Program-made: the position numbers and the translations under genes
Shown: in pieces, positions 21,067-36,994 of the stretch
Layout: the number at the start of each line of letters is the position of its first letter
Position numbering within the stretch: position 1 is the first letter of the stretch
Assembly (NCBI GenBank): GCA_903921785.1
Contig: CAIXRH010000337.1
Location: forward strand, 1-64,000
DNA: 64,000 bases
DNA from: an uncultured Pseudomonadota bacterium
GTDB lineage: Bacteria; Myxococcota_A; UBA796; SXON01
Direction: 5' to 3'
The notes under the pieces: generated by a model
Seen by the model: the letters and a program-made list of their open reading frames with translations, nothing else
What the model was told of the DNA's origin: nothing
Databases searched by the model: none

Positions 21067-21450
21067 GCGGGAAAGGCCGGGAAGAAGCTGGCGCCGAGGG
21101 GCCCCTGCGTCGAGCGGCGCGCCGACCGAGGTCGGCGACGTCCACGCCTCGGCCGTTCCCTGCGTTCGTCGCTTCGTTTGCAGAACGGCACGGAGCCCGC
21201 GTTGCCCGGTCCCGGGAACCCGGGGTAGAGGCCGCCGCCAGAGGACTCCCATGCTCTCCCGAATTCCTCTCACACCCGTTCGCGGGGTGGATGCGCCTTC
21301 TGTCGTGTTCGTGGGCTCGGGCGTGAAGCCCGCGTGGACGCCTGCCGAACGTTTCGCACCGGTGCTGTCGCGTGCGGTGTTTCGTACGCGGTGGCTCGAC
21401 TCGTACGCGACGCCCTGCCACGCCCACGGCCGATCGTTCTGAGTTCGGTC

Positions 21451-22920
21451 ATGCCCGACGCCGCGATTCGCCCGGTCATCGAACACATCCACGCCGCATC
21501 GCGCGCGTTGCGGTCGCGGGAGCTCCGGGAGTCCCTCCGGCACATCGGCAGCGAGGACGCGGCGCTGCTCCGCCGGGCGATCCTGCGGGTCACCGCCTTC
21601 GTCGACGACTCGATCTCCAACCCGGTCCTCGGCTCCCTCTTCGCGCGCACGGCCGAGGACCCGGTGAACGCCCTGGCCGCCGCGCTCGCCGAAGCCTACG
21701 GCGTGGCTCGCACCTACCCGGGCACCACCGGCACCACGGGGCTCAACGTGCCCGCGGTGCTGACGCTCGCCCACGAAGGCGAGACCATCGCGGTCGCCCG
21801 GGATTGTCACGTGTCCGTCATCGGGGCGCTCTGCCTCTCGGGCGCCACGCCGGTGTACCTGGAACCGCCGTTCGACGCGGCGCGCGGGCTGATGCTCCCG
21901 CCGACGCCCGCGGAGGTCGCCGCCTTGCTCAACGCGAACCCTGCCGTGAGGGCCCTCGTGGTGACGATGCCGACCTACCACGGGCTGATGGGGGACGTGG
22001 CCGGGGTGGTCGCCGAGTGCCACCGACGGGGGGTGCTCGCCATGGTGGACGAAGCGCACGGCCCTCACTACCGCTTCCTCCGGGCCCTCGGGTACCCCGT
22101 ATGCGCGGAAGACGCCGGCGCCGACGTGGTGACGCAGTCCACCCACAAGGTGCTCTCGGCGCTGAGCCAGGCTTCGCTGCTCCACTTCAACAACCTCGGG
22201 CTGGTGATGCGCTACGAGGAGTTCCAGTCGATGGGCTTCCAGTCCACGTCGTTTTCGTACCCCCTGTTGATGTCGATCGAGCAGGCCATCGAGCGCATCA
22301 CCTCCCAGGGGCACGACGACTGGCTCGCGGCGCTCGACCTCGCGGCGCGGCTCGGCCACATGGCGGGGCGGATCGAGGGCGTCACCGTCCTGGGCGAAAA
22401 CGTCATCGATGGCGTGCGCGTCGTCGGGCGAGACCGCTGCCGCGTCACCCTGGATGTGCGCGGCACGGGCTGGACGGGGTACGCGCTCGCCCGCGCCCTG
22501 GCGGAGCGGGGCAACGTCGTGGAGATGGCGACGCAGGACCTGCTGCTCTTGCTCGTGAGCCCCAGCGTGTCGGAGATGCAGGTGGACACGACGATCGCGG
22601 ACCTGCTCGACATCCTGCATGACGACGTCCCGCCCCATCCGGACCCGGCCTTGCTGGTGCCGCCGCCGCTGCCGGAGCAGGTGCTCACCCCCCGGCAGGC
22701 CACCCTGTCGCGAGCCCGGATCCGGGTGCCGCGGCGGGAGGCCGTCGGCCGCGTGAGCGCCGAGACCATCGGCGCGTACCCGCCGGGGCAGGCGATCTTC
22801 GTGCCCGGGGAGCGGATCCACGCCGAAGGGGTGGAGTTCCTGGAGGGGGTCGTCGCCAGCGGCGGGCACCTCAAGCGGGTCCACGACGACGACTTTCAGA
22901 CGATCGAGGTGCTCGCGTGA
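21451..22920 (+). CDS. Orn/Lys/Arg decarboxylase-family PLP enzyme
   Basis: Start MPDAAIRPVIEHIH; 'TYPGTTGTTGLNVPAVLTLAHEGETIAVARDCHVSVIGALCLSGATPVYLEP', 'MVDEAHGPHYRF', PLP-Lys 'VVTQSTHKVLSALSQASLLHF'. Confidence 0.9.
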   Translation: MPDAAIRPVIEHIHAASRALRSRELRESLRHIGSEDAALLRRAILRVTAFVDDSISNPVLGSLFARTAEDPVNALAAALAEAYGVARTYPGTTGTTGLNVPAVLTLAHEGETIAVARDCHVSVIGALCLSGATPVYLEPPFDAARGLMLPPTPAEVAALLNANPAVRALVVTMPTYHGLMGDVAGVVAECHRRGVLAMVDEAHGPHYRFLRALGYPVCAEDAGADVVTQSTHKVLSALSQASLLHFNNLGLVMRYEEFQSMGFQSTSFSYPLLMSIEQAIERITSQGHDDWLAALDLAARLGHMAGRIEGVTVLGENVIDGVRVVGRDRCRVTLDVRGTGWTGYALARALAERGNVVEMATQDLLLLLVSPSVSEMQVDTTIADLLDILHDDVPPHPDPALLVPPPLPEQVLTPRQATLSRARIRVPRREAVGRVSAETIGAYPPGQAIFVPGERIHAEGVEFLEGVVASGGHLKRVHDDDFQTIEVLA

Positions 22921-25457: not shown

Positions 25458-26726
25458 ATGCTCGCCAGCTTCGTCGTCGCGCTGCTGCTCCTCGTGCGTG
25501 TCGCCCTCGCCTGCTGCGGCGCCGACGTTGACCGCGAAGAACGCCAGGCCCACGCGCCGCTCGTCGCCATCGGCGTGGTGGTGGACGTGGAGGTGGTCGA
25601 CGAGGGCGACCCCACGGACCGCTTCTACACCCCCACCGTCTACGAGTCGGTGCGCGTGACCCGCGTGCTCAAGGGGCAGCTCGATCGCCCGGGACTGCGC
25701 ATCCGGACCTGGGTCCCGACCTGGGGCTCGTGCATGAGCGCGCGCGTCGTTCCCGTGGGGCGAGAGGTCTATGTGCTCGTCGCGCCGGATGAGACCGGGA
25801 CCGTCACCCTCGGCGCCTGCACCGGCGACGTCGGGGAGACCGCCTGGCGCGACGACCTCGAGGCCCTCGCGCAGCTCCACCCCGAGACCGCCGGGCACTT
25901 CCCCGGCCTCGACCTCCCCGAACCCGCGACCACCCGCACTCCCCTCCCCGTCCGCGACGGCCTCCGCGCACGCGTCCGCCGCGGCGGCGCCCTCGCGGAT
26001 GCACAGCTCCTGGCCGCCCCAGCGCCCTCCGGCACCGTCGCCGCCCTGGTGGAGGACGACGGGCTCTACTTCCGCGAGGAGCTCCCCCTCGGCGACCTGC
26101 AGCCGGTGACCGCCGCGGTCACCCCGGTCCGCCTCGGCGCCGACCTCTACTGGCGCGCGGGGGTCCCGTTCGCGGACCCCAGCCACCCGATCGACGCGCC
26201 CGGGCTCGTCGTCCACGCGCCGCTGCCGGCCAGCGCGCTCGCCGACCGGTGGCGCGAACGCCCCCCGCCGGAGGAGCGCGGGCCGGCGTCTCCGGGCAGG
26301 TGGCTCCGGCCCGCGGCACCCTTGACGCTCTACGACCGCACCGGCGCCCGGCTGGTGACCGGCGCGGCCGAGGACATGCTGGTCCAGGACCCCGGCGGGA
26401 GCGCCTGGCGGGAAGTCGGGGTCTCCACGGTCCAACTCCAAGGGCGCGCGTGGGTGCGAGGGGCGATCGCGGACGGCGAGGGCGTCGGCATCGGCATGCT
26501 GATCGGCTCCGCCCACCTCCGCGAAGTGAGCCTCCACCCCGGAGACACCCTCTACGACCCCGGCACGGGCGTGGCGTTCGCCACCGCCGACTACAGCAGC
26601 GTGGTGGAGCTCTCCCACGAAGACGGGCGCCTCCTCGTCGCCAGGCACCACCTCGGCCGCTGGTGGATCGGCGAGGTGGAGCGAGCGCCCGCCGCACCCG
26701 TCCCCGCGCCGGACGATCCGAGCTGA
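25458..26726 (+). CDS. Secreted hypothetical protein
   Basis: Signal peptide MLASFVVALLLLVRVALACCGADVD...; uninterrupted 422-aa ORF. Confidence 0.75.
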   Translation: MLASFVVALLLLVRVALACCGADVDREERQAHAPLVAIGVVVDVEVVDEGDPTDRFYTPTVYESVRVTRVLKGQLDRPGLRIRTWVPTWGSCMSARVVPVGREVYVLVAPDETGTVTLGACTGDVGETAWRDDLEALAQLHPETAGHFPGLDLPEPATTRTPLPVRDGLRARVRRGGALADAQLLAAPAPSGTVAALVEDDGLYFREELPLGDLQPVTAAVTPVRLGADLYWRAGVPFADPSHPIDAPGLVVHAPLPASALADRWRERPPPEERGPASPGRWLRPAAPLTLYDRTGARLVTGAAEDMLVQDPGGSAWREVGVSTVQLQGRAWVRGAIADGEGVGIGMLIGSAHLREVSLHPGDTLYDPGTGVAFATADYSSVVELSHEDGRLLVARHHLGRWWIGEVERAPAAPVPAPDDPS

Positions 26727-26770: not shown

Positions 26771-28822
26771 TCACCCCTCGACGGCGGAGACCTCGAACGC
26801 CGCCACCACCTGGCCGCGCCCCTTCACGGTGAGGTCGCCGCGGGGCTCCGCGCGTACGCCCGCGCCCGCGGCCTCCACGGCCTGCGCCGTCGCGAGCACC
26901 GCGCCGGGGGTACAACGCCCCTCCAGGCGGCTCGCCACGTTCACCGTGTCCCCGATGACCGTGTACTCCATCCGCTGCACCGAACCGAGGTTTCCCGCGA
27001 CCGGCTCGCCGTACGACACGCCCACCCGCACGGCGAAGGGCTCCACCCGGGGGCGCTCCGGCTGGGCGTTGAGCGCGAGGATGGCCCCCTGCATCTGGAG
27101 GCCGCACCGAAGGGCCCGCCGCGCCGGGGGTTCGAGCCCTGGGCCTTCGAGGAAGACCACCATCATCCCGTCGCCGATGCGCTTGTCGAGGATGCCCGCG
27201 GTGTCCTCCACGATCTGATCCATCGCGGCGAAGTACCAGTTGAGGAAGGCCACCGCGACCTCGGGCTCCACCTGCTCCGACCAGGGCGTGAAGCCGACGA
27301 CGTCGCTGAAGAGCACCGCGGCCCGCCGCCGCTCGCCGCCGAGGGCGAGCGCCGCGCCCGGCTCCTCCCGGATCCGGTCGACGACGGAGCGAGGGAGGTA
27401 CTGGGAGATCTTCTGGTTGAGCAGGAGCGCGGCTTCGATCGCCGACCGCTCCCGCCGCAGCCGGTCCACGAGGTTGGCGCGGGCGAGGGCGAGCCCCACC
27501 AGGTTGCCCACCTGCTGGAGCATCTGGTGGTCGCGGGGGCCGAGCGCGGAGTCGGCGTGCACCTGGTCCACGACGAGGAGCCCGAGCGGGCCGTCGGGGC
27601 CGCGCACCGGCACCGCCACGAAGGCCGTGCTGCCCATGCGGTCGAGGAGCGCCTGATTCTCGGCGTTGACCTGAGCGCGGAACGCCGCGACGTCCGCGAC
27701 GAGCGCCCCGGACTCGCTGTGCAGCAGGTTGGCGAAGAGCCGCTCGTCCTTCCGCACCACGGTGACGGAGAGCGAGAGGCCGCGGAGAAGGGTGAGGCCG
27801 TCGGCGTCGAAGCCGGCGCCGCCGCCGAAGCGCAGGCGCCCCGTGGGCGCGTCCACCCGCAAAAACATCGCCCGGTCGTAGCCGAGGGTGTTGCGAATGG
27901 CGTTGAGGGCGGTGTCCACCAGGCCCTCCGGGGACATCTCCCGGCGGGTCGCGAGGTCTACCTGCTCCAGGAGGAGGCGCTCGCGGTTGCGAGCGAGGTT
28001 CTCGTCGAGGAGGGTCTTGGCGGCGGTGAGCTGGTCGCGCTGGTCGTGGCCGGCGGCGGTGAGCTGCCGCTGGAGGACGACCACCTCCGCGGCCAGGGCG
28101 GCGGCCGTCCCGACGGCGGTGAGGATCGTGGCCGGGGCGCCGAGGCCCCCGAAGGCGGCGAGGGCGGCGGTGGCCACGCCTCCGCCGAACGCCACCCACG
28201 GGAGGAGCCCCTGGCCGAACAGCGGCGCGACCCACTCCACCCGGTACTCGCAGACCGTGTCCCCTTCGTGGATGCACCGGGGATGGGTGAGCTTCCCCAT
28301 CGGGAGCCCGAACGCCTGAGGAATGCCCGCGAGGCCCCCCTGCCGGTTGAGGCAGAACAGCGGATCGTCGGTGTGGCCACGCTCCACCTGGAACTGCATG
28401 ACCACGTGGCGCTTGCCGGACTCCACCAGCTTCCAGCGGGTGATCCGCGAGAGGTCGGCGTACTCGGTCATCCGCGCGTAGACCATTCCGGGAGAGCCGA
28501 GGGCACGGAGCACGGGGTAGGTCGGGCCGAGCACCTCGGGGTCGACGAGCACGAGGCCGGCCCGGTAGGTGATGAGCGGGTCCTTGCTCTGCTCCACCAT
28601 GGCTCGGGAGAGGATCAGGAGCTGCCGCGTGGACAACCACTGCTGGGGGTCGCGGAGGCGCTCCAGCGGCGTGTCGGTGCGGGCCACCAAGGCGCGGAGC
28701 GCCTCCTCTCCGAAGCGCCCCGAGAAGAACCGCAGCATGGGCTCCACGAGCCGCGTGCTGAAGACCAGCTCGTCGTCGCGGCGGGCCTCGGCGACGCGGG
28801 CGCTGGTGAGGGGCTCGGTCAC
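26771..28822 (-). CDS. Class III adenylate cyclase with N-terminal V4R-like sensor, membrane segment and GAF domain
   Basis: GTG start at 28822 (VTEPLTSARVAEARRDDELVFSTRLVEPMLRFF...); catalytic 'AAVLFSDVVGFTPWSEQV', 'ILDKRIGDGMMVVF', 'VRVGVSYGEPVAGNLGSVQRMEYTVIGDTVNVASRLE'; N-terminal 'KLTHPRCIHEGDTVCEYRVEWV'. Confidence 0.93.
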   Translation of the reverse strand: MTEPLTSARVAEARRDDELVFSTRLVEPMLRFFSGRFGEEALRALVARTDTPLERLRDPQQWLSTRQLLILSRAMVEQSKDPLITYRAGLVLVDPEVLGPTYPVLRALGSPGMVYARMTEYADLSRITRWKLVESGKRHVVMQFQVERGHTDDPLFCLNRQGGLAGIPQAFGLPMGKLTHPRCIHEGDTVCEYRVEWVAPLFGQGLLPWVAFGGGVATAALAAFGGLGAPATILTAVGTAAALAAEVVVLQRQLTAAGHDQRDQLTAAKTLLDENLARNRERLLLEQVDLATRREMSPEGLVDTALNAIRNTLGYDRAMFLRVDAPTGRLRFGGGAGFDADGLTLLRGLSLSVTVVRKDERLFANLLHSESGALVADVAAFRAQVNAENQALLDRMGSTAFVAVPVRGPDGPLGLLVVDQVHADSALGPRDHQMLQQVGNLVGLALARANLVDRLRRERSAIEAALLLNQKISQYLPRSVVDRIREEPGAALALGGERRRAAVLFSDVVGFTPWSEQVEPEVAVAFLNWYFAAMDQIVEDTAGILDKRIGDGMMVVFLEGPGLEPPARRALRCGLQMQGAILALNAQPERPRVEPFAVRVGVSYGEPVAGNLGSVQRMEYTVIGDTVNVASRLEGRCTPGAVLATAQAVEAAGAGVRAEPRGDLTVKGRGQVVAAFEVSAVEG

Positions 28823-29955
28823 TGGCTCCCCACGACCATGTTCGAGAGGCGGGTCGCGGTGATCCGCGCGAGGTTGAGCAGGAGCTGGCGTTCCACCTCG
28901 GGCGCCCGGGTGCGGAGCTCGTCGAGCACCCGGCGACGGAGCACGAGCAGCCGCCCCCGGGTGCGCGCGGTGATCGTCGCCGAGCGGCGACCGCTGGCGA
29001 TGAAGAAGCCGACCTCGCCGACCACGTCGCCCTTGCGGAGCTGAGCCACGACCCGCTCTTCCCGCGTGACGGTGAACTCGCCGTCGAGGATCACGAACAG
29101 CTCGCGTTCGTTGAGGTCTTCGCGGGTGACGGTGCCGCCGGGGGCCACCTCGATCACGAAGCCGGCGCCGGTGATGGTGCGCACCTGGGCGTCGTCGAGG
29201 TCGTCGAAGACCTGGGGTCGGAGGGGGTGGGCGAGGAGCGCGGCCTGCACGCCGGCCCACACCTCGCCTTCGTCCACCTCCAGGGCGCCGCTGAGGCCGA
29301 GCTCGGCCTCCACGACGGCGGTGGTCTCGGCCGTGCCGGCGCCGAAGCGCGCGCGGGCCAGGGAGGTGAGCGGCGAGGCCATGGCGCGGAGGTGGGGGAC
29401 GTCGTCCACCACGAGCACCAGCGGACACCGGAGCCCGTCCGCGGTGGCGATGAGCTCGGCGCCGTAGGGTCGGTAGCCGAGGCGGCGGTAGCCGGCGACG
29501 AGCCCGGGGGCGCAGTAGGCGAAAGAGACCCGGACGCCGTCCTTGGTGGCGAGCTCGAACGCGGCGCGGGCGAGGGCCGGCATGATGAGCTTCCCGCGGA
29601 GCTGCCGCCGGACCATCAGGCGGCTCGCCTCCGCCATCGGCAGCGCCAGGAGCGCGCGCGCCTCGGTGATCCCGTACTTTCGCGCCGCGGGTTCGGGGAC
29701 CGCGCCGGTCGGCCAGCGGTCGACCCGCAGGGTGCCCGTCACGTCGGCGGGGCTGCCGGTGTAGAGCAGCGTCACGGAGGGGTCGTCTTCGTCCGGGTCA
29801 CGGATCCAGCCGCGCGCGTGGTCGGCGCCCGGGACGGTCTTGCCGAGCTCCCGCACGTAGACATCGTAGCGGAAACGCCAGATCCCCTCGCGCTCCGCCG
29901 CGGTGGTGGCCGCGCGGACGGTCTCCAGCTCCAGGAGCCAGTCGACAAGGCTCAT
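28819..29955 (-). CDS. Acyltransferase (FeeM/LuxI-like GNAT) fused to C-terminal cyclic-nucleotide-binding domain
   Basis: MSLVDWLLELETVRAATTAAEREGIWRFRYDVYVRELGKTV...'MAEASRLMVRRQLRGKLIMPALARAAFELATKDGVRVSFAYCAPGLVAGYRRLGYRPYG'; C-terminal 'LFVILDGEFTVTREERVVAQLRKGDVVGEVGFFIASGRRSATITARTRGRLLVL'. Confidence 0.88.
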   Translation of the reverse strand: MSLVDWLLELETVRAATTAAEREGIWRFRYDVYVRELGKTVPGADHARGWIRDPDEDDPSVTLLYTGSPADVTGTLRVDRWPTGAVPEPAARKYGITEARALLALPMAEASRLMVRRQLRGKLIMPALARAAFELATKDGVRVSFAYCAPGLVAGYRRLGYRPYGAELIATADGLRCPLVLVVDDVPHLRAMASPLTSLARARFGAGTAETTAVVEAELGLSGALEVDEGEVWAGVQAALLAHPLRPQVFDDLDDAQVRTITGAGFVIEVAPGGTVTREDLNERELFVILDGEFTVTREERVVAQLRKGDVVGEVGFFIASGRRSATITARTRGRLLVLRRRVLDELRTRAPEVERQLLLNLARITATRLSNMVVGSQ

Positions 29956-30761
29956 GCGGAGCCGGGCGCGTCGCCGGTGGCGAAGAACACGACGACGACC
30001 CCGAACGGCTGCTCCGCGGCGGGCAGGGCGGCGAGCGCGCCGAGCTCCTTCGCGAGCCCGATCGCCTCGGCGTCGCCGACCTGGATCGCCTTGAACCGGG
30101 TGGTGATGTCGAGGAAGGCGCCGAGCCCGAGCTCGGCGGAGGTGACCGCCACCGTGTGGAGGCGCACGCGGGTGAACCCCGCCTGCTGGAGCAGCCGGGG
30201 CAGCTTGCGGCCGACGTGGCGGTCGCCGCCCCGCGCCTTCTGGGCCTCGAGCGCCCGCGCGGTGAGGCGGCTGAACGCCGCAGGCGCCGGGTCCACCGCG
30301 AGGAAGCCGTCGTCGATGTCCATGACGCAGACGCGGCCGCCGGGTCGGAGCACCCGCCGCACCTCCGCGAGGGCGTCCCCCGGGTGGCTCAGGTGCTGGA
30401 AGACGAGGCGGCTGTAGACGAAGTCGACGCTCGCGTTCGGCAGGCCGGTGCCGTAGGCGCTGCCCTCCTGGAAGTCTACGTTCGGGTGGACGGGCGCCAC
30501 CACCGCGCGGGCGGCGGCGAGCAGCTCGGCGCTGGTGTCGATCCCCACGGCCTCGCCGGAGAGGTCGCTCAGCGGGCCGGTGATGAACCCCGGGCCGCAG
30601 CCGAGCTCGAGCACACGCTGTCCGGCGCGGAGGCCGAACGCCTGGAGCTGGGCCAGCTCGGCGTCGAGCAAGACGGTGGCCTGCTTCTGGAGCCGCTGGA
30701 GCTCGGCGGCTCGGTCGACGTCCCCGAACAGGTCGTAGTGGTACGAGCGGGCGATGTGCAT
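29952..30761 (-). CDS. SAM-dependent methyltransferase
   Basis: 'LRAGQRVLELGCGPGFITGPLSDLSGEAVGIDTSAELL', 'EVRRVLRPGGRVCVMDIDDG'. Confidence 0.93.
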   Translation of the reverse strand: MHIARSYHYDLFGDVDRAAELQRLQKQATVLLDAELAQLQAFGLRAGQRVLELGCGPGFITGPLSDLSGEAVGIDTSAELLAAARAVVAPVHPNVDFQEGSAYGTGLPNASVDFVYSRLVFQHLSHPGDALAEVRRVLRPGGRVCVMDIDDGFLAVDPAPAAFSRLTARALEAQKARGGDRHVGRKLPRLLQQAGFTRVRLHTVAVTSAELGLGAFLDITTRFKAIQVGDAEAIGLAKELGALAALPAAEQPFGVVVVFFATGDAPGSA

Positions 30762-31416: not shown

Positions 31417-32646
31417 CTACTCGTACCGCAGCGCCTCGACCGGGTCCAGCCGCGACGCCCGCCAGGCCGGGTAGATGCCGAAGGTGAGCCCGATGACCGA
31501 GGAGAAGATCAGGCCCAACGCCACGGACCACGGCTCCACCTGGAACGGCCACGGGGTGACCCACTTCGTGACCGCCCAGCTCCCCACCCCGAGCAGGCCG
31601 AGCGCGCCGACGAGGCCGAAGGTGGCGCCAACCAGGGTGATCGCCAGGGTCTCCGACAGGAATTGGCTGAGAATGTCGCGTTGGGAGGCGCCGACTGCGC
31701 GGCGGACGCCGATCTCCCGGGTGCGCTCGACCACGGTGACCAGCATGATGTTCATGATGTTGATGCCGCCGACGATCATCGAGAAGACCGTCGTGAGGTA
31801 CAAAAGCGCCTTGATCGTGAACATCACCAGCTCTTCGGTGCTGGAGTCGTCGCTCACGCCCTCGAGCTCCCAGCTCTTCACCGAGCGGTCACTCATGAGG
31901 ATCACGTCGATGACCGAGCTCGTGGCGAGCATGTAGTCCTTCACCAACCCCTGGATCTCCGCGGGCACGGCCACGCGGACGATGATCGAGGATGGGCGGC
32001 GGCTGGGGTCGAAGTCCAGCGCGTAGGTCTTGGCAGGGAAGATGATCCGCTGGTTCCAGCTCCACGGTCCGCCGGGGCCCATCTCCGGCTTCTTCTCCAG
32101 CACCCCGACGATGACGTAGGGGTGCCCCTCCACCCGCACGGTGTCCCCGGGCTCCACATTCCCGTCGAGCGCGCTGGCGCCCACGAGCACCACCCGGGCG
32201 CCGCTCTCGAACTCGCTGCCCGCGAGCTTCCGGCCCTTGCCGAGGCGGAGCTTGAAGACATCGAGCGCCGTGGGGTCCACCCCGATGGTGAACGGGTTGT
32301 AGGGTTTGCCCTTGTATTCTGCCTGCCGGTCGCGCATCCCGTAGGCGGCGGTGACCTGACTGCCAGGGGCGATGAGCGTGGAGCCCGAGATCGCGGCCTG
32401 GTCCTCGTGGGTGAGCCGGCGCGCGTCGGGGCGGTTCTGGAGCTGCTGCCAGTCGTTCGAGGCGGTGATCACGTCCTGGTCGGTCGCCTGGGCGCTCGCG
32501 TCACGGAGCACCGCCTGCCCCACCTCGAGGATGCTCGCCATGATGACGAGGCTGCCGACGCCGACGACGATCCCGGACACGGTGAGGAGGAACCGGACCT
32601 TCTGGCTCCGGAACATCTCCCAGGCGGTGGCGAGCGCGGAGAACAT
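31417..32646 (-). CDS. MacB-like ABC transporter permease
   Basis: MFSALATAWEMFRSQKVRFLLTVSGIVVGVGSLVIMAS...; 'IVGGINIMNIMLVTVVERTREIGVRRAVGASQRDILSQFLSETLAIT', 'YPAWRASRLDPVEALRYE'. Confidence 0.94.
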   Translation of the reverse strand: MFSALATAWEMFRSQKVRFLLTVSGIVVGVGSLVIMASILEVGQAVLRDASAQATDQDVITASNDWQQLQNRPDARRLTHEDQAAISGSTLIAPGSQVTAAYGMRDRQAEYKGKPYNPFTIGVDPTALDVFKLRLGKGRKLAGSEFESGARVVLVGASALDGNVEPGDTVRVEGHPYVIVGVLEKKPEMGPGGPWSWNQRIIFPAKTYALDFDPSRRPSSIIVRVAVPAEIQGLVKDYMLATSSVIDVILMSDRSVKSWELEGVSDDSSTEELVMFTIKALLYLTTVFSMIVGGINIMNIMLVTVVERTREIGVRRAVGASQRDILSQFLSETLAITLVGATFGLVGALGLLGVGSWAVTKWVTPWPFQVEPWSVALGLIFSSVIGLTFGIYPAWRASRLDPVEALRYE

Positions 32647-33881
32647 CAGCGCCTCAGGCACTCGACGGGGTCGAGCCGCGAGGCCCGCCACGCCGGGACA
32701 GCGCCGAAGAACAAGCCGATCGCCCCGGTGACGCCGAGCGCGAGCGAGAGGCCGAGCACGCTGTAGCTGCTCACCCAGCTCTCCTGGAAGTGCCCGATGA
32801 GGGTGTTGGCGGCGAGGGTCGTGAGCACGCCCACCCCCGCGCCGAGGAGCCCCCCGGTGAGCGAGAGCACCAGCGCTTCGAGGAGGAACTGGGTGAGGAT
32901 CGCCCGCTGGGTGGCGCCGAGCGCGCGACGGATGCCGATCTCCCGCACCCGCTCGGTGACCGACACCAGCATGATGTTCATCACCCCGATGCCGCCCGCG
33001 ATGAGGCTGATCCCGGCGATGAGCGCCACGATGAGGTCGAGCACCAGGAAGAAGGTGTAGAACTGCTGAAGGAAGCTGGAGAAGTCGAGCGAGCGGAAGT
33101 CCTCGACGCCGTTGTGGTTGGTGAGCAGCGCGGCGTTGGCCATGGCCACCGCGGTGCCGTTCTGGGTGGCGTCGGTGGTGCGGCCGACGAAGAACCGCGC
33201 GTTCTCCGGGCGACCGTCACGCTGCTCGGCGGTGAGCACCGGGAGGAAGACGCTGTCTTCCCAGGAGAAGCCGAAGTTCACCCCCATCATCTCCCGCCGC
33301 TCCAGCACCCCGACGATCACGTAGGGGCGACGCCCCACCTGGAGCGTCTTGCCGAGCAGCTCCCCGGGCGCGGCTTCCGGGAAGAGCTTCTCGGCGAGCG
33401 GCGTGGTGATCACCACCACCCGGTCGCGCGCGGCCCCGTCGGCGTCGGTGACGACGCGGCCGACCGACACGCCCCAGCCGAGCATCTCGAGCACCCCCTC
33501 GCTCACCCCCACCACGTCGGCCTTCTGGCGATTGTCGGCGGTAGCCCAAACGGACTCGCTGCCGTAGGTCGCCTCCGACGCCACCGCCGCCACGTAGGGC
33601 ACCTGCTTGAGCGCGGCGAGGTCGGCGTCGGTGAAGCCCTGGTCGTACCTCGCGAGGTCCCGCGCGCTCGGGGACTCCGACTCGCTGGGGATCCACAGGA
33701 CCATCTTCATCCCACCCACCCGCTCGATGGCGGAAGCGAGCGTCTTCTGCCCGGACTCGGCGAGGGAGAGCATCACCACGATGGAGAACGTGCCGATCGT
33801 GACCGACAACATCGTGAGCAGCGTGCGGAAGAGGTTCCCCCGCAACGTCCGGATCGCGAGTCGGGCGGTCTCCCAGATCAC
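32646..33881 (-). CDS. MacB-like ABC transporter permease
   Basis: 'RTLRGNLFRTLLTMLSVTIGTFSIVVMLSLAESGQKTLA', 'GGIGVMNIMLVSVTERVREIGIRRALGATQRAILTQFLLEALVLSL', 'VPAWRASRLDPVECLRR'; ATGA overlap with the next gene. Confidence 0.94.
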   Translation of the reverse strand: MIWETARLAIRTLRGNLFRTLLTMLSVTIGTFSIVVMLSLAESGQKTLASAIERVGGMKMVLWIPSESESPSARDLARYDQGFTDADLAALKQVPYVAAVASEATYGSESVWATADNRQKADVVGVSEGVLEMLGWGVSVGRVVTDADGAARDRVVVITTPLAEKLFPEAAPGELLGKTLQVGRRPYVIVGVLERREMMGVNFGFSWEDSVFLPVLTAEQRDGRPENARFFVGRTTDATQNGTAVAMANAALLTNHNGVEDFRSLDFSSFLQQFYTFFLVLDLIVALIAGISLIAGGIGVMNIMLVSVTERVREIGIRRALGATQRAILTQFLLEALVLSLTGGLLGAGVGVLTTLAANTLIGHFQESWVSSYSVLGLSLALGVTGAIGLFFGAVPAWRASRLDPVECLRR

Positions 33882-33882
33882 G

Positions 33883-34959
33883 TCAGTTCATCTTCTCGCT
33901 GAGGTCCTTGACCTGCCCGAGGGCGTAGTACTTCTGCCCCTCGTTGAGCCCGGAGGTGATCTCCACCTCCCGCTCGCCGCGGTGGCCCACGCCGACCTCG
34001 GTCTTCTTCTTCTCCTTCTTCCCGGCCGCCTCCTCGATGATCCACACGTAGGAGTTGCCCTCCTCTTCGAAGACGGCCTCCGCCGGGACCTTGAGCACCG
34101 CCGGCCAGTCGCCGGCCTTGATGCGCACCTCGGCGGTCATGCCCGGCTTGATCTCCACGTCGGCCTTGGTCGGATCGACCTCCACCTTCACGGTGAAGAC
34201 GTCGATGCCGCGGCTGGTGTCGGTGTGGCCGGCGGCGGCGATCTGCTTCACCACGCCGGGCACCTCCTTGCCCGGGTAGGCGTCCAGGAGGATGCGCGCG
34301 GCCTGGTCCATCTTCACCTTCGCGACGTCGACCTGGTTCAGATCGATCTCCAGGATCAACTTGTCGACCTGGGCGATGGTGAGCTGGGACTCCCCGTTGA
34401 CCAGCGAGGTGACGCCCGCGGTGACGACCTCGCCCGGCTCCACGTTGCGGGTGATCACCACGCCGTCGATCGGCGAGGCGATGTGGGTGTAGTCGAGCTG
34501 GTCCTGGGCGGCGCGGAGCTGCACCCGCTGCCCCTCGATCGCCACCTTCGCGAGCTCCACCTCCCGCTTCGCCTGGTCGTACTCGGCCTCGGAGATGCCT
34601 CGGGTGGCGAGCGCGGCTTCTTTCCGCTTGCGGTCCACCTCGGCGTTCTCCGCCTGGAGTACGGCGGTGCGCAGCGAGATGCGCCGGCCCTCGACCTCGC
34701 GGGCGTACTCGGTGTCGACGACGTCGTAGAGCGCGTCGCCCTTCTTCACCGCCTGCCCTTCTTCCACGTAGACGTTCTGGATCTCCCCGGAGACCTTGGA
34801 CTTGATGTCCACGTCGAAGCGGGGGGTGATCTTCCCGGCTTCGCTCACCTCGTCCACGAGGTCGCCGCGGGTGGCGGTCTTCACGAGGTTGTCATCGACG
34901 GGTTCGCCGCCGCCGCCGCCGAAGCTGCAGGCGGCGAGGAGGAGGAGGAGGGCGGTCAT
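33883..34959 (-). CDS. RND/MacA-type periplasmic adaptor (HlyD family) lipoprotein
   Basis: MTALLLLLAACSFGGGGG...; 'FDVDIKSKVSGEIQNVYVEEGQAVKKGDALYDVV', 'DYTHIASPIDGVVITRNVEPGEVV'. Confidence 0.93.
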   Translation of the reverse strand: MTALLLLLAACSFGGGGGEPVDDNLVKTATRGDLVDEVSEAGKITPRFDVDIKSKVSGEIQNVYVEEGQAVKKGDALYDVVDTEYAREVEGRRISLRTAVLQAENAEVDRKRKEAALATRGISEAEYDQAKREVELAKVAIEGQRVQLRAAQDQLDYTHIASPIDGVVITRNVEPGEVVTAGVTSLVNGESQLTIAQVDKLILEIDLNQVDVAKVKMDQAARILLDAYPGKEVPGVVKQIAAAGHTDTSRGIDVFTVKVEVDPTKADVEIKPGMTAEVRIKAGDWPAVLKVPAEAVFEEEGNSYVWIIEEAAGKKEKKKTEVGVGHRGEREVEITSGLNEGQKYYALGQVKDLSEKMN

Positions 34960-36250
34960 CGGGGGGCTCCGAGGGGGTCGTCGCCGAGCAGCCAGCGCAG
35001 GTCGCACTCCGCGGTGGCGAGCTGCACGCGCAGGCTCGCCCCCTGGGTGGAGGCGCTGCGGAACGCGGACTGGGCGTCGAAGAGTTCGAGGACGGTCGCG
35101 GACCCCTGGGCGTAGAGGTCGCGGACGATCTGGAGGTTGTCGCGGGCGAGGGCCACCTGCTTGTCGGAGAGCGGCACCCGCTCCCGAAGCTCCCGCACCC
35201 GGGCGGCGGCCTGACGGATGTCGGCGGCGATGCTGTCCTTCTCCGCGAGGGCGGAGGCGTCCACCTGGGCGGCGGCGAGCTTCGCCGCGGCGACGGAGTC
35301 GTGGGTCTTGCCGAGGTCGAAGACGTTCCAGGAGAGCTGGAGGCCGGCGCTGGCGTCGAGGGCGGGGCGGAGGTCATCGGCGGTGAAGGCGCCGAAGGCG
35401 CTGTCGTCGGTGGGGCCGGCGCTCGCACCGCCGGCGCCGGCGGTGGCGAAGACGCTCACGCTCGGGAGGGTGGCGCTGCGCGCGGCGCGGATCGCCGCCT
35501 CGGCCGCGGCGGCTTCGTCGTCTTTGCGTTGCAGCTCCGGCCGCTTCTCCCCCGCGTTCTCGGGCAGCGCGACGGCCCCCGAGGCGGGCTCGGGCGCGAC
35601 GTCGGTGAGCACCACCGCGTCGCCCTGGAGGTGGAGGAGCCGGATGAGGTCCTGCTGCGACTGGTACAGCTCCGACTTCTCGGAGACGAGGGCGTCCTGC
35701 TGGGCGTAGAGCTCAACCGTGGACCGGTTCACGTCGATCCCCGCGGCCAACCCCGCCTTCGCCTTGGCGGAGATGATGTCGAGGCCCTCCTGCGTGAGCG
35801 CGAGGCCCTCCTCGGTGGCGGCGATCTGCAGCTCGTAGCCGCGGATGGTCCAATAGGCGGTGTAGGCGGCGCGGACGAGCTGCCGCTCGGTGATCGTGCG
35901 GTCGGTGGTGGCGATGCGGGATGCGGCGTCGGCGCGGTCGATGGAGGCCTGGATGGCCCCGCCGGCGTAGAGCGGCACGGTGAGGCGCGCGCGGGCGTCC
36001 CAGTCGGCGCTGGCGACGCCGATCGTGTCTTCGTTCCAGGGCTTCTGGACGCCGGCCGCGCCGTCTCCAGAGACGCCGAGGGCGAGGGTGGCGCGATCGA
36101 GCCGGGCGCGGTGCGCGTCGATCTGGGCGATGGACTCGGCGAGGACGGCGCTCTCGCGGTCGGGGTTACGCTCGACGACCATGCGGACGGCGTCGGCGAG
36201 GCTCAGCTCGGGGACGTCCGCGGCGTCGGCGAGGGCGGCGAGGAGGAGGA

Positions 36251-36254
<4 letters not shown>
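34956..36254 (-). CDS. TolC-family outer membrane efflux protein
   Basis: 'PELSLADAVRMVVERNPDRESAVLAESIAQIDAHRARL' plus 'RQAAARVRELRERVPLSDKQVALARDNLQIVRDLYAQGSATVLELFDAQSAF'. Confidence 0.93.

Positions 36255-36994
<740 letters not shown>

Follow-up and report, generated by a model that had tools for sequence, protein, structure and literature searches.

The window analysed here is a stretch of 64,000 nucleotides from an uncultured freshwater bacterium that is probably related to the myxobacteria. On its minus strand three genes lie head-to-tail, joined by 4-nt overlaps. They encode a SAM-dependent methyltransferase (Methyltransf_11; 269 aa, positions 29952-30761), a FeeM-type N-acyl synthase with a C-terminal cyclic-nucleotide-binding (CNB) domain (378 aa, 28819-29955) and a sensor-GAF-class III nucleotidyl cyclase (683 aa, GTG start, 26771-28822). 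The methyltransferase/FeeM-CNB junction is an ATGA overlap at 29952-29955, the FeeM-CNB/cyclase junction a GTGA overlap at 28819-28822. All three genes were assigned from open reading frames and Pfam matches; nearest solved sequences and a subfamily tree were added for the methyltransferase and a residue alignment for the cyclase. A gap of 655 bp upstream of the methyltransferase is followed by an efflux-type operon on the same strand (31417-36994), which contains two MacB/FtsX permeases, an HlyD-type adaptor, an outer-membrane efflux protein and an ABC ATPase. This operon was considered as a conserved partner and rejected, since the neighbourhood table showed no MacB/HlyD/OEP/ABC genes close to the homologues. 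The gene downstream of the cyclase (25458-26726) is convergent. No plasmid relatives and no RNA element were found, and a promoter/terminator scan gave no usable signal. Further along lies the gene of an Orn/Lys/Arg decarboxylase-like protein (21334-22920), to which the family's other 21 genomes gave no match at E<=1e-30.

The N-terminal part of the middle protein (aa 25-181, 29413-29883) matches the Pfam FeeM profile PF21926 (5.4e-10; 39.7 bits, cut-off 27). PF21926 scores are moderate; among 31 homologues, 30 reach E<=0.01. With a profile built from the 31 FeeM domains, the best hits among solved proteins were BjaI-type autoinducer synthases (E=2.8e-6). Residues R29, E36, D45, R77, E109, S111 and R112 align with BjaI, so that the LuxI/FeeM catalytic set (RxR, D45, R77, E-x-S-R) is present; the E109-A-S-R112 motif (29620-29631) aligns with E-W-S-R of BjaI. 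The NCBIfam model of the exosortase-associated acyltransferase (TIGR03694) gave the window protein 16.4 bits, below its cut-off of 111.95. What sets the protein apart from FeeM and LuxI-type synthases such as BjaI is the C-terminal CNB domain. This domain (PF00027; aa 269-348, 28912-29151) was detected with 2.5e-12 and 47.1 bits against a cut-off of 27.5. Its phosphate-binding cassette GEVGFFIASGRRSA (aa 313-326, 28978-29019) is CRP-like (GEVGFF...RRSA) and includes Glu314 and Arg324. A Foldseek search with the predicted structure of the fusion, a low-confidence model with a mean pLDDT of 55, matched CNB/CRP folds in the C-terminal half.

The cyclase carries GAF (aa 298-446, 27485-27931) and Guanylate_cyc domains in Pfam. 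The catalytic domain (aa 501-673, 26804-27322) has the full class III residue set, with the two metal-binding Asp residues D507 and D551, the pair K547/D625, and N628/R632. In class III cyclases the Lys/Asp pair is typical of ATP use. Both the metal Asp residues and this pair are kept across the 10 nearest cyclase relatives, the Lys being missing only in the outgroup G328. The N-terminal sensor domain (aa ~21-200, 28223-28762) was assigned by profile comparison. It resembles PF12625, the AraC N-terminal domain, which matched 9 of 9 relatives; the window protein itself scored slightly below the PF12625 cut-off. V4R (PF02830) reached E=0.16 at best in two of nine relatives and did not match the window protein. 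The C183-x-H185...C191 cluster of the sensor domain aligned with H-NOX sensors at E=0.19, a chance-level significance. Behind the sensor domain lies a hydrophobic stretch (aa ~207-250), which may form a membrane hairpin. An AlphaFold model of the cyclase was set aside (pLDDT 46).

These results agree in most points with the first-pass annotation of the locus. The three overlapping minus-strand genes were confirmed as described, as were the FeeM/LuxI-type rather than Pat-type nature of the acyltransferase domain, the C-terminal cNMP cassette with its conserved Arg, the expected CAP_ED-like fold of that half in the low-confidence model, and an adenylate-type cyclase with metal Asp residues and a Lys/Asp pair. 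The "V4R-like Cys/His sensor segment" held in part: the Cys/His cluster is there, and the V4R label gives way to PF12625.

We surveyed 379 genomes of the phylum and matched the FeeM-CNB fusion in 35, mostly across both domains. The tree of the fusion has two large clades. In the window's clade of 11 rows, the acid at position 109, Glu314 and Arg324 are kept in every row. The acid is kept in that clade alone; it is absent from the second clade, and other clades lost E-x-S-R and/or the CRP-like cassette. CNB ligand residues are retained in cyclase-linked members. The ribose-binding Glu of the CNB is gone in family f18 and in two methyltransferase-fused proteins, and the f18 case indicates that the domain can be retained where cyclic-nucleotide binding is no longer evident. 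Of the 22 genomes in the window's family, 4 carry the fusion. A close cyclase orthologue accompanies it in each of these, compared with one of the 18 genomes without fusion; these genomes are related to each other, so the count is not independent evidence. Two further members, G210 and G295, carry a diverged cyclase orthologue. The window's genus is represented by ten more genomes, and fusion, cyclase and methyltransferase are absent from all of them.

Gene neighbourhoods were compared for each pair of partners. The cyclase adjoins FeeM-CNB in four genomes, namely the window genome (G000), G128, G195 and G225; in the last of these the fusion gene is interrupted by a contig break. Thus fusion homologues do lie near cyclases beyond the window. 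The genome of the window (7.5 Mb) contains only 6 class III cyclases and 16 CNB matches, so that chance adjacency of the two should be rare. Most fusion homologues have no neighbouring cyclase. In G088 the cyclase is unlinked to the fusion and has a 1023-aa PD40 beta-propeller protein as its neighbour. The cyclase of G097 is arranged likewise, in a genome that lacks the fusion. The PD40 protein adjoins the sensor-cyclase in two genomes (L099:7755-12890, L100:4817-9948). The methyltransferase adjoins FeeM-CNB in eight genomes (the window genome, G128, G225, G088, G157, G269, G195 and, downstream, G175); its reading frame in G088 holds an in-frame TGA. Moreover, four proteins, three in G195 and one in G230, are single FeeM-CNB-methyltransferase chains with the methyltransferase at the C-terminus. 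The methyltransferase is thus the steadier partner of the fusion than the cyclase, and adjacency and single chains together tie the two enzymes.

The methyltransferase also occurs with the sensor-cyclase alone. A member of the same subfamily lies directly beside a sensor-cyclase without FeeM-CNB in G210 and G295 (same family) and in G248, G253 and G258 (same class). Four of these genomes gave no FeeM match, and G258 a weak one below the cut-off. At these loci, in two families of the class, the methyltransferase is immediately upstream of the sensor-GAF-cyclase (L126:4098-6888, L127:4219-6922, L135, L136, L137), which looks like a separate signalling pair. Methyltransferase and cyclase can therefore work together without acylation, and the methyltransferase is not solely a tailoring enzyme for the acyl product of this cassette. 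Additional sensors were seen beside it: a sensor hybrid histidine kinase in G193, and in G175 a sensor-domain protein following a second methyltransferase copy. As each pairing recurs separately, the genes form a modular set. The "self-contained cassette" of the first-pass annotation was not sustained, given the fusions without cyclase and the pairs without fusion, and a fixed triplet was rejected with the cyclase adjacent in four genomes only.

Other neighbours of the fusion are metabolic. At L061:5023-9084 an acyl-AMP ligase, a fatty-acyl reductase-like protein and FeeM-CNB stand in a tight row. In family f24 (L072:7506-9942, L070, L076, L079) FeeM-CNB is followed, with short overlaps, by a haem-oxygenase-like iron enzyme (PF14518, as checked in L072) and then by a methyltransferase of the PEMT type; this set is a possible biosynthetic operon.

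Taking together the observed order and overlaps of the genes, their domain assignments, the residues for catalysis and ligand binding and the recurrence of each pair, we propose that the three-gene operon may be a cAMP-gated pathway for small-molecule N-acylation, with a methyltransferase and a co-transcribed source of cAMP. Judged from sequence, we give this reading a roughly even chance. The FeeM domain would use acyl-ACP or acyl-CoA as donor and acylate an acceptor, either an amine or an amino acid; the catalytic signature and the neighbourhoods at L061 and L072 point to small-molecule N-acylation. The CNB domain suggests allosteric control by a cyclic nucleotide, for which the adjoining cyclase is the obvious source. 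It would bind cAMP and thereby switch the acyl synthase on or off, while the sensor-GAF-cyclase would make cAMP in response to some ligand. The methyltransferase may act in the same pathway, on acceptor or product; being found with both FeeM-CNB and sensor-cyclase, it probably makes or modifies a molecule that they share. Acyl-signal synthases are generally held to be controlled by transcription and substrate supply. If the proposal is right, synthesis of an acyl small molecule would come under second-messenger control at the protein level and not via gene regulation.

One of the closest known designs is Pat (Rv0998, MSMEG_5458), the mycobacterial cAMP-GNAT, which likewise has an acyltransferase and a cAMP-binding domain in one chain and makes an allosteric logic plausible for the window fusion. 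In Pat the CNB is N-terminal (PMC8556138), whereas here it is C-terminal, a reversal pointed out in the first-pass annotation and borne out by the domain positions. The window protein might accordingly be read as a cAMP-regulated protein lysine acyltransferase with reversed domain order. A GNAT fold class and a CNB combined in one protein speak for this, and Pat is allosterically activated by cAMP (PMC8556138). However, the acyltransferase domain sides with FeeM and autoinducer synthases, and the solved proteins listed for its profile up to E=1 include no Pat. The small-molecule-type methyltransferase, fused or paired, and the metabolic neighbours also argue against it. The usual acetyl-CoA loop of acetyltransferases is Q/R-x-x-G-x-G/A; at its position the window protein reads QLRGKL. 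The Pat-like enzyme is therefore disfavoured and seems very unlikely. It is rather improbable, too, that the operon makes an aminolipid, with an OlsB-like FeeM domain producing a membrane lyso-aminolipid which the methyltransferase N-methylates under cAMP control. The nearest solved sequences of the methyltransferase, 3mgg and plant phosphoethanolamine N-methyltransferases, fit such a role, and a PEMT-type gene lies beside several fusion homologues. In G088 a lipid A-type acyltransferase is two genes from the fusion. Similarly, 24 of 31 FeeM domains have a sub-cut-off match to the ornithine N-acyltransferase OlsB (NF052554). In the window protein, however, this match scores 15.4 to 16 bits, far short of the 350 required, and the operon has no O-acyltransferase.

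A further alternative takes the operon as two functional pairs brought together by descent, methyltransferase with sensor-cyclase and FeeM-CNB apart, so that no allosteric link would join cyclase and CNB. The five genomes with methyltransferase-cyclase pairs and the cyclases of G088 and G097, unlinked to or without the fusion, are consistent with it. Against it, the methyltransferase and cyclase trees agree in grouping the pairs into a clade of their own, separate from the triplets (100/99 in either tree). In addition, FeeM-CNB is placed between methyltransferase and cyclase with 4-nt overlaps, the methyltransferase is fused to FeeM-CNB elsewhere, and cyclase-linked members keep the CNB ligand residues. 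We regard this explanation as unlikely.

Returning to the cAMP-gated N-acylation pathway, a bolder version would close a loop like that of LuxI/LuxR: a methylated N-acyl signal, made by FeeM and the methyltransferase, would act on the AraC-N/H-NOX-like sensor of the cyclase, which adjoins the seemingly membrane-embedded hydrophobic stretch, and the resulting cAMP on the CNB of the synthase. As in LuxI/LuxR autoinduction, an acyl-signal-type synthase is paired with a neighbour bearing a candidate small-molecule sensor domain; there the sensor is a transcription factor, whereas here it is a putative second-messenger-making enzyme and product sensing is hypothetical. The loop is a long shot. If true, the recurrence of the methyltransferase with sensor-cyclases and with the histidine kinase of G193 would mean that it makes the sensor's ligand. 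FeeM/BjaI-like enzymes start other lipid pathways as well (PMC10404671). TyzA of the tyz cluster in M. tuberculosis is an N-acyltransferase with FeeM and BjaI as nearest structures; the accessible sections of that report mention no CNB or cyclase, and its partner enzymes differ from the window operon (PMC10404671). A literature search, largely of papers outside subscription, returned no description of a FeeM or autoinducer/AHL synthase with a CNB; in the literature found, a FeeM-type synthase with built-in CNB is thus a previously undescribed fusion. Methyltransferase-FeeM-CNB, methyltransferase-cyclase, the full triplet and the one-chain FeeM-CNB-methyltransferase are ready constructs for testing. 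The window genome holds another candidate cAMP module, in which two CNB domains and a class III cyclase lie within 2.4 kb (G000:C349:1920-4308; L003, L004).
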